Both the position numbers and the translations under genes were made by a program. Of a DNA stretch of 64,000 nt, positions 10,296 through 42,673 are shown piece by piece. Source of the DNA: Prevotella sp. (GTDB taxonomy: Bacteria; Bacteroidota; Bacteroidia; Bacteroidales; Bacteroidaceae); NCBI GenBank assembly GCA_017449495.1, contig JAFTFO010000042.1, forward strand, positions 1 to 64,000, written 5' to 3'. How positions within the stretch are numbered: the first letter of the stretch is position 1; each line of letters opens with the position of its first letter. Under the pieces are notes generated by a model. That model was not told the origin of the DNA. It did no database searches and was given only the letters and a program-made list of their open reading frames with translations.

Positions 10296-11511
10296 ACTCA
10301 AAGTCATCGAGGTCTTCGATGTCCTCGATATCTTCTGCATCAACATATTCAATGTCCTCATCCTCACCCTCGTCGGCGAGTTCTGCGGCAAAGCGGCTCA
10401 TATCCTTGTCACGATGCACCAATGTATCCTCGGCTGTCAAGGTTGCCAATTTGTTACTCTCGGCATTCAGTTCCCGCCAGAGCACATCCTTCAGTTCTTC
10501 CAGCCCAAAGCCGGTAACGGCAGAGATAAACACTACGGGCGTGTAACAGAGGGACGGTTCTTTTGTTACATCGCCGCTGTTGATATCACAAAAGAACCGT
10601 CCCTCTGTTACACCAAGCTGCTCCTTGAGCATCTCGATGAGTTCCTCGTCTAGGAGGTCACACTTCGTTACAGCCAGCACACGGTGCTTATCGAGCATCT
10701 CGGGGTTGAACTGCTTCAGTTCGTTGAGCAGGATCTCATATTCCCTCTTGATATCATCCGTATCGCCCGGCACCATGAACAACAATAGCGAATTGCGCTC
10801 GATATGCCGGAGGAAGCGGAGGCCGAGGCCCTTGCCCTCCGAAGCACCCTCGATGATGCCCGGGATATCAGCCATCACAAACGACTTGTTGTCGCGATAG
10901 CCCACGATTCCCAATGAGGGTTCCATCGTGGTGAAGGGGTAATTAGCAATCTTAGGACGGGCATTGGAGAGAGCAGACACCAACGTAGACTTACCGGCAT
11001 TAGGGAATCCCACGAGACCAACATCGGCCAGCAGCTTCAATTCCAGAATGATGGTCATCTCCTGCATGGGTTCTCCGGGCTGGGCATAGCGCGGTGCCTG
11101 GTTCGTGGCACTGCGGAACTGAAAGTTACCCAGTCCGCCACGACCACCTTTCAGCAGCAGTACCTCTTGCCCGTCATAGGTGACGTCGCAGACGTACTTG
11201 CCTGTCTCTGCATTGTAGACTACCGTCCCACATGGCACGTCGATAAACACATCCTTGCCGTCGGTACCATGACACTTGTCCTTGCCACCATTGCCGCCAT
11301 GCTCTGCGAAGATATGACGTTCGTATTTCAGGTGTAGCAGTGTCCAGTAGTTATGGTTACCGCGCAGATAGACGCTACCGCCCTTGCCGCCGTCGCCGCC
11401 GTCAGGGCCGCCATTGGGGTTGTATTTCACATGCTTCAGGTGCATCGAGCCCTTACCGCCCTTACCCGAGCGGCACATAATCTTCACATAGTCTACGAAA
11501 TTACTCTCCAT
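10276..11511 (-). CDS. obgE: GTPase Obg/CgtA with an in-frame repeat-derived insertion
   Basis: Obg is a GTPase acting in 50S ribosome maturation and stress control. The Gly-rich Obg fold (about 1-158) is followed by the G domain with GFPNAGKS (G1, 168-175), DIPG (G3, 215-218), TKCD (G4, 282-285) and SAVTG (G5, 330-334), then a very acidic C-terminal tail (about 372-411) typical of the group. The protein is 411 residues; usual relatives are near 386-390. The excess equals residues 300-324, encoded by a perfect inverted repeat (10541-10613) lying between G4 and G5. Because the frame and all G motifs are kept, the protein is probably functional. Adjacent adk and pgeF fit the usual Bacteroidales order. 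Confidence 0.95.
10541..10613. repeat. Perfect 26-bp inverted repeat inserted inside obgE
   Basis: Left arm 10541-10566 and right arm 10588-10613 are exact reverse complements; the loop is 21 bp. The arm contains GAGGGACGGTTCTTTTG. Arms plus loop correspond to 25 codons (10540-10614), exactly the part of ObgE missing from the usual family length. The motif resembles REP-type palindromes mobilised by RAYT/IS200-like transposases, though no such transposase lies in the window. Confidence 0.85.
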
Positions 11512-11523
11512 ACTGTTTTCTCT

Positions 11524-11583
11524 ACAACGGATTTAACGGATTTCCATATTGTTTTCATCCGTGGAATCCGTTAAATCCGTTGT
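11524..11583. repeat. 19-bp inverted repeat between adk and obgE
   Basis: The arms 11524-11542 and 11565-11583 are perfect reverse complements containing CAACGGATTTAACGGATT; the loop is 22 bp and contains another copy of ATCCGTGG. It can fold in the adk-obgE mRNA. It is not followed by a T-run on the minus strand, so it is a dispersed palindrome rather than a typical terminator. Confidence 0.75.
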
Positions 11584-37387: not shown

Positions 37388-37497
37388 CAAATTCAGTGTA
37401 ATCAAAAAGCAAATTCACTGAAATTGCAATGCAAATTCAGTGAAATTAGTCACCAAATTCAGTGAATTTGGTCAGTAAATTCAGTGAATTTGCTAAA
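37388..37497. repeat. Five tandem 22-bp dyad repeats upstream of GH43 gene
   Basis: Units start at 37388, 37410, 37432, 37454 and 37476, each beginning (C/T)AAATTCA(G/C)TG. Units 4 and 5 carry a full palindrome AAATTCA-G-TGAATTT; the last 6-8 bp of each unit vary. The 22-bp period equals about two helical turns, so all sites face the same side of the DNA. Position just upstream of a promoter suggests an operator array. Confidence 0.85.
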
Positions 37498-42191: not shown

Positions 42192-42645
42192 CCCATCATT
42201 TCTGCACGCCCAAGATATGCAGAGTGGCAAGGCCTCCTACTATGCTAAGAAGTTCTCTGGCCGAAGGACGGCCAGCGGGGAACGCCTGCACCACGACAGC
42301 CTGACCTGTGCCCACCGCACCTACCCCTTCGGTACCAAGCTGAAGGTGACCAATCCTGCTAACGGCAAGCAGGTCATCGTCAGGGTGACTGACCGGGGAC
42401 CGTATGTCAAGGGAAGGATCATAGACCTCTCGGTACGGGCGGCCCGTGAACTCGGCATCCTCAGTCAGGGTATCGCCCCTGTCACCGTTGAGCGTTATAC
42501 CGAGACAGCCATCCCCTTTAAGCCTGAGGAGATCTTAGACCTGCCTGAGTTTGACATTGGCACGAACGAAGGCTCTGACACCAAGCCAATCTGGATGGAG
42601 CTTAGGGATCAGTACAAGAAAAAGACACAGGAGGAAAAGGAATAG
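42088..42645 (+). CDS. rlpA: RlpA-like double-psi beta-barrel lytic transglycosylase
   Basis: 185 residues from MKNEEFVSAV; an alternative start is the Met at 42130. The signal peptide ends FLHAQ. The RlpA/DPBB domain follows: GKASYYAKKFSGRRTASGE, YPFGTKLKVTNPANGK, VRVTDRGPYVKGRIIDLS (catalytic-type Asp and Glu/Asp positions) and RAARELGILSQGIAPVTVE. RlpA proteins cleave peptidoglycan strands lacking stem peptides at the septum. No SPOR domain is present. The signal peptide lies inside a dispersed repeat element. Confidence 0.9.
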   Translation: MKNEEFVSAVRWHRMLVACVLLWGAIANSSFFTLHPSFLHAQDMQSGKASYYAKKFSGRRTASGERLHHDSLTCAHRTYPFGTKLKVTNPANGKQVIVRVTDRGPYVKGRIIDLSVRAARELGILSQGIAPVTVERYTETAIPFKPEEILDLPEFDIGTNEGSDTKPIWMELRDQYKKKTQEEKE

Positions 42646-42673
42646 GAGTTCATTGCTAACTCCTATTCCTTTT
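42635..42673. terminator. Bidirectional terminator
   Basis: A perfect 16-bp stem AAAAGGAATAGGAGTT (42635-42650) pairs with 42658-42673 across a 7-nt loop, with A/T runs on both sides. It covers the rlpA stop and reaches the stop of the converging glycine-zipper gene. Confidence 0.92.

Follow-up and report, generated by a model that had tools for sequence, protein, structure and literature searches.

A REPIN-like palindromic repeat of Prevotella lies in frame within obgE and in many other coding genes

REPs are usually described as extragenic elements. In Pseudomonas fluorescens SBW25, inverted REP pairs termed REPINs form a hairpin in a unit of about 70 bp and are presented in PMC3116915 as conserved, RAYT-linked and extragenic doublets. 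Intragenic cases have also been reported: the account of GTAG/CGTC REPs in PMC3733652 includes dimers located wholly within open reading frames (ORFs) of O. terrae, Thauera, R. conorii and others, where they encode 20–30 residues, core genes (uvrA, for instance) being among the hosts, and where the REP ends may supply stop codons, most REPs in these organisms being intergenic. Likewise, Rickettsia palindromic elements (RPEs) are treated there and in PMC10969869 as selfish palindromes inserted in frame into unrelated functional genes. With intragenic REP dimers (PMC3733652) and RPEs (PMC10969869) already in print, the aspects new to us are the Prevotella families described below, the predominance of their genic copies in six genomes, the apparent homogenisation and the covariation among orthologs, and the repeated invasion of one loop of ObgE. 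Among the matches listed, no description of such elements in Prevotella was recognised in the open-licence literature.

We analysed a stretch of 64,000 nt from a Prevotella sp. contig (JAFTFO010000042.1, positions 1–64,000), referred to as the window, for whose obgE gene an in-frame palindromic insertion had been proposed. The insertion was confirmed as a 73-bp inverted repeat that is read as part of the protein between the TKCD and SAVTG motifs (Table 1). The original prediction had equated the element with exactly 25 codons; its 26-nt perfect arms and its position held, but 73 is not a multiple of three and the codons therefore cover 75 nt. The protein had also been described as longer than usual by the same 25 residues; because the usual loop of relatives has four residues, the net gain is only about 21, and the insertion site lacks about 12 nt of host sequence. 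Over their full length the arms are 94% complementary, and the RNA fold of the palindrome reaches −53.4 kcal/mol (z = −9.1), a value as low being obtained in 0/200 shuffles. In a scan of the window for inverted repeats (arms of ≥17 nt, ≤1 mismatch, loops of 3–44 nt), it was the longest of four. Other inverted repeats are located at 11524–11583 (arms ACAACGGATTTAACGGATT..., between adk and the obgE start, possibly a leader or regulatory palindrome), at 42635–42673 (17-nt arms; this might be a terminator) and at 37410–37470 (17-nt arms).

Table 1. Features of the obgE locus, with positions in the 64,000-nt window
Feature	Position	Strand	Basis or remark
obgE host gene, 411 aa	10276–11511	−	ObgE/Obg homologs in PDB
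73-bp palindromic element (inverted REP doublet, REPIN-like)	10541–10613	.	Inverted-repeat analysis, fold, covariance model
One arm, 32 nt	10541–10572	+	Outer 26 nt (10541–10566) perfectly complementary to the other arm
Other arm, 32 nt	10582–10613	−	Outer 26 nt: 10588–10613
Loop between the arms, 9 nt	10573–10581	.	Loop region unlike the orthologous copy in genome G119
ObgE codons 300–324, element-encoded	10540–10614	−	In the place of 4 residues (PxDL) in most relatives

Homologs of ObgE in the PDB are 1udx, 5m04, 4csu and 1lnz. Alignments with 1udx, 1lnz and 7odt end at residues 299–300, and those with 5m04 and 4csu continue through the insert site. The insert occupies the loop directly preceding the strand that leads to G5, which we take to be the alpha4-beta6 loop of the Ras fold; in this fold, the alpha4-beta6 loop is positioned away from the nucleotide. 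An effect of the peptide on nucleotide or ribosome contacts, as had been suggested, found no support, since the site is a loop that varies in length and sequence within the genus.

ObgE matches were obtained in 80/80 same-genus genomes searched, and many sequences of close relatives align up to about residue 299 and resume at 324 or 325. For a detailed alignment, 38 same-genus sequences were used (the window genome, G119 and 36 from the 80 genomes searched). The insert was present in two of them, the window genome and G119, so that residues 300–324 are absent from 36/38 and the same 25 residues are far from being common to all close relatives; 28/38 have a 4-residue PxDL-type loop at this site and 8/38 have other, longer loops. 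Excluding the insert, obgE of the window genome and of G119 shows a nucleotide identity of 0.849 over 386 codons (dN 0.029, dS 1.10). The two copies agree at every one of the outer 26 + 26 arm bases (0/52 differences) and have identical insert junctions; their loops differ. The ObgE tree joins both carriers with a support of 0.907; G018, a genome without the obgE insert, is nearest to the window genome in 6/7 other genes.

The palindrome belongs to a dispersed repeat family. A search of the window genome for the arm, as the original prediction had proposed, yielded 21 matches to a 21-nt arm pattern (≤3 mismatches) and 0 in the reversed control; a looser 15-nt pattern gave 41 matches versus 16 in the control. 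Among exact or near-exact matches, nine copies have two arms versus at least six with a single arm. All nine two-arm copies lie in frame in genes, namely those for Fkp, RNase HII, ObgE, PnuC, MenE, a GH97 enzyme, RsmF, an RluA-type pseudouridine synthase and a PAD_porph protein (agmatine-deiminase-like). A covariance model was built from 47 copies and run on 16 genomes, of which 13 contained a match; the obgE element (10540–10614) was matched on both strands with E values of 4.3e-19 and 9.9e-19, this copy being itself part of the model alignment. The genomes compared are mostly draft MAGs.

For six genomes, the distinct model matches listed, which include sister palindrome types likewise found in open frames, were classified by whether a stop-free frame of ≥120 aa spans them; matches in G051, G025, G074, G013, G020, G050 and G035 lay outside this classification, and for the window genome the list covers 26 of 27 strand matches. 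At first 62/73 were spanned (among the matches listed, 13/13 in the window genome, 5/5 in G018, 14/19 in G031, 16/18 in G119, 9/11 in G090 and 5/7 in G099); the match beside the RAYT gene of G031 is not truly genic, which leaves 61/73. Strand and frame of the copies were set by the longest ORF and may be wrong for L328 and some short ORFs. Pfam matches at E ≤ 1e-3 were obtained for 42 of the 47 host ORFs scanned (out of 59 distinct ones), 41/47 being above the curated cut-off. Only 208/426 element frames (six per copy, 71 copies) are free of stops; unselected insertions would mostly break genes.

These counts have to be read against the base rate. Random 73-nt windows of the same loci were spanned by a long frame in 10840/11877 cases (91%), so that 61/73 indicates neither avoidance of genes nor a preference for them, and genic location as a preference was rejected. 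At non-Bacteroidales loci (mostly Firmicutes), which were retrieved with the exact two-arm pattern, 31/83 palindromes among the matches listed were spanned at a base rate of 4594/5100 (90%), and the difference from 61/73 is significant (Fisher p = 2.9e-9); taxon groups were assigned from record titles, and this group includes one bin titled 'uncultured bacterium'. A stricter in-frame classification gave, among the matches listed, 13/15 for named Prevotella, 21/28 for same-genus loci, 12/80 for Firmicutes, 1/2 for Actinobacteria, 1/9 for one unnamed bin, 2/10 for other Bacteroidales and 2/14 for uncultured Prevotellaceae bins, the last value meaning that the genic habit is not common to all Prevotellaceae.

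Several copies and related palindromes deserve mention in their own right. Decayed copies occur in Fkp of the window genome, in RluA of G090 and at second sites in MenE and RsmF. The decayed second insert of MenE (L031 1078–1150, window genome C18) is intact at the same site in RGIG5155 (L154). A sister palindrome encoding HRGTVPCVSSxADYTGTVPSV (L037 1289–1361 and L350 1501–1573; window genome C23 and C3) lies in frame in RsmF, as the second insert of that gene, and in an acyltransferase. Another in-frame type with the peptide VTLGSGYFVTS...VTKYPDPNVT was found in L352, L355, L356 and L358 of G031, where the hosts are radical-SAM, glutamine amidotransferase, tRNA_Me_trans and methionine-synthase-like proteins, and in L366 of G090. 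One P-type ATPase ORF (L228, G119 C23) contains two intact in-frame palindromes, and in RnhB of G018 (L289) the RNase HII loop that bears the palindrome in the window genome holds a different repeat-like stretch, TVNCQLSTVNSQ.

The frames in which the arms are read were compared for 42 genic copies: on the left, 28 copies read DGS, 13 RFF and one GTV; on the right, 34 read KEP, five QKN and three KRT. RFF and GTV are equally open, as are KEP and KRT, and the biased use within both pairs (13 vs 1, p = 0.0018; 34 vs 3, p = 1.2e-7) therefore suggests selection on the encoded peptide. The end TAACAG, which would terminate the DGS frame, was seen in 0/28 DGS copies versus 10/13 RFF copies (p = 2.6e-7); this was dropped as independent proof of translation because genic copies had been called by open frames, which makes the absence partly circular. 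Outer-arm complementarity extends 11 positions past the core and then falls from 31/42 to 11/42, the conservation of the arms being partly biased by the many copies found through the near-exact arm pattern. Arm pairs covary, with 132 double-change cells versus 48.8 ± 7.7 in shuffled data and 8–19 with slid partners; since copies were gathered with near-exact cores, only the outer and inner pairs are informative here. The bias in frame choice and the covariation of the arms suggest that both the peptide and the palindrome are under constraint.

Eight insertion sites are common to two or three genomes. At the seven with comparable flanks, dS is 0.77–2.25 and the arms are mostly near-identical, in a sample that favours intact copies because most sites were found by exact arms. 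Arm differences, counted as left + right of 26 + 26, amount to 0 in three pairs for RsmF, 1+1 (mirrored) for both RluA and MenE, 2+2 (both mirrored), 3+2 (two mirrored) and 1+0 for an MntP-like gene, 1+0 for a 764/962-aa ORF (LGLEEP) and 3+8 (two mirrored) for Fkp with its decayed copy; PrmC shows 2+2 (mirrored) and has too little alignable flank for dS. In RluA, the 16-nt loops of G018 and of the window genome (G000) are exact reverse complements of each other, and the left junction is offset by two codons between these genomes. The RsmF loops of the same two genomes are identical despite a flank dS of 0.80. We read the shared sites as old or recurrent occupancy with arms that would have been renewed at the DNA level.

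In G067 and G051, the obgE loop is occupied by other strong palindromes, with folds of −51.7 and −58.2 kcal/mol, respectively (values without a shuffle control). Both belong to repeat families of their own, with 46 arm matches for the former and, for the latter, 22 in G051 and 48 in G034, all controls being 0. The copies fetched (4 of 46 and 20 of 75 matches) lie in stop-free frames of ≥120 aa in 24/24 cases, to which the base rate of about 90% applies, and 10/10 scanned hosts, including leucyl-tRNA synthetase and UvrA, gave Pfam matches.

A search of the window genome for a RAYT/IS200-type transposase, likewise proposed beforehand, revealed two Y1_Tnp genes. PF01797 scored above the cut-off in L001, L002 and L248, and the RAYT ORFs carry the HuH motif NHVHLL/NHLHLL; a further candidate (L256 826–1737) was rejected because the Pfam scan identified it as a PAP2 protein. 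The RAYTs of the window genome are flanked only by degenerate or variant REPs, and the better-matched ORF is short (174–181 aa) and adjoined by a degenerate one. In G031, 8 nt separate the end of the RAYT ORF from the REP core of a full element, and the TAA of this element provides the stop codon of the ORF, the other flank being the contig end; in G119, REPs are located 75 and 66 nt to either side. A related repeat was found within 200 nt of 5/10 RAYT ORFs of this class in the palindrome genomes. Relatives of the G119 RAYT (E ≤ 1e-20) are present in 42/200 genus genomes, namely in 6/7 with an exact palindrome versus 36/193 without (p = 3.7e-4); G051, with a single exact and intergenic palindrome, gave no such relative at this threshold.

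As in the REPINs of SBW25, as far as they are described in PMC3116915, the Prevotella element consists of two inverted REPs in one hairpin with a similar unit size and a RAYT link, the cognate gene being flanked by the same REP on one side in G031 and on both sides in G119. It differs in its core (GGGACGGTTC) and in location: SBW25 REPINs are extragenic, whereas most classified Prevotella copies are inside genes, with 61/73 of the matches listed within long open frames at 91% for random windows. Compared with the GTAG/CGTC REPs as portrayed in PMC3733652, genic copies prevail in six genomes, and comparison of the Prevotella orthologs adds covariation, homogenised arms and the recurrent invasion of a single loop; the 47-copy consensus has neither GTAG nor CGTC at its ends, CGTC occurring within the arm core (CCGTCC). 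The likeness to RPEs that had been drawn, compared here by their published description, is supported in that the Prevotella palindrome also lies in frame in unrelated coding genes. Set against this, the RAYT-associated Prevotella element differs from RPE-1 in size and host. RPE-1 type elements are about 150 bp long and found in Rickettsia, and we know of no transposase link for RPEs. Overall, the original prediction was partly supported: the REP-like nature proved right, the element being an inverted REP doublet resembling a REPIN and RAYT-linked in two relatives, and the idea of a mobile palindrome accepted in a core gene was sound as to dispersal and frame and understated the many genic copies elsewhere.

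Considering the repeat family, its open in-frame placement, the absence of the insert from most relatives, the covarying arms and the RAYT linkage, we hold it highly probable that a REPIN-like, RAYT-copied element is retained and translated where it is in frame in tolerant loops, with homogenised arms. A Y1-HuH RAYT transposase, acting in trans, would most likely copy the inverted pair of REP-type hairpin sequences (core GGGACGGTTCTTTTGT; about 70–75 bp in total), which in a group of Prevotella would insert into genes. Copies breaking the frame or a folded core would be lost; those in frame in tolerant, presumably surface-exposed loops would persist and be translated as a linker of about 20–25 residues. 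The obgE insertion would have occurred in a lineage common to the window genome and G119, and the likeness of the arms would be maintained at the level of DNA, most likely through conversion between arms or between copies, or through the arrival of fresh copies in place of old ones.

Other explanations were weighed against this one. A loop native to ObgE and inherited vertically, palindromic in its codons by chance and involving no mobile element, would fit the naturally varying loop length in the genus and the occurrence of the insert in two species; the recurrence of the same DNA palindrome in unrelated genes with reversed controls at 0, the 36/38 aligned ObgE without it and the identical arms at a flank dS of 1.10 oppose it, and given that the genome-wide repeat family refutes it, we assign it practically no weight. 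Removal of the element from the message or bypass by the ribosome, leaving it untranslated, is very improbable, even though the mRNA hairpin is very strong and core genes are hit: a skipped element need be neither open nor in frame, yet at most 12/73 copies among the matches listed lie outside a long open frame, spanning prevails though fewer than half of the element frames are open, and the choice among equally open frames is strongly biased. That DGS-frame copies are free of TAA agrees with translation in a partly circular way.

Retention because the peptide or the mRNA hairpin benefits the host, by tuning expression or as a regulated loop, would account for old shared insertions, constraint on both arms and core genes among the hosts; we consider it improbable, as the hosts are functionally unrelated, loop variability is seen in species that lack the element and the peptide differs between frames. 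A more serious contender, which we still judge unlikely, is repeated site-specific insertion in each species in place of homogenised ancestral insertions. Arms that are alike around different loops, the inverted RluA loop with its shifted junction and the two unrelated families in the same obgE loop argue for it; the ObgE tree and identical obgE junctions, the identical RsmF loops and decayed copies at orthologous sites, which point to age, argue for ancestral insertions with homogenised arms.

With sister copies in frame in many genes, palindromic DNA of this kind is apparently translated as tolerated protein loops, so that parasitic palindromes would be accommodated in genes rather than excluded from them. 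We tentatively put forward, as possible though short of probable, that tolerant loops of core proteins in rumen Prevotella serve translated selfish palindromes from several unrelated families as docking sites, and that copies at occupied sites are still exchanged through RAYT-driven replacement or conversion, flips included. If so, the inserts would be translated, exchangeable cassettes and not decaying fossils, with arms kept fresh while their hosts approach synonymous saturation. Among the copies examined, a REPIN-like family and at least two unrelated ones reside mainly in coding sequence of Prevotella, several carriers being rumen MAGs and core genes being among the hosts. For annotation, recurrent stretches such as GDGSFVTS...VTKEPSPCYT or APSGAVGGA in proteins of Prevotella are to be regarded as repeat-derived and not as domains. 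The family thereby offers dozens of natural insertions of about 20–25 residues that conserved enzymes tolerate, and its orthologous sites allow the turnover of REPINs to be dated and tracked.
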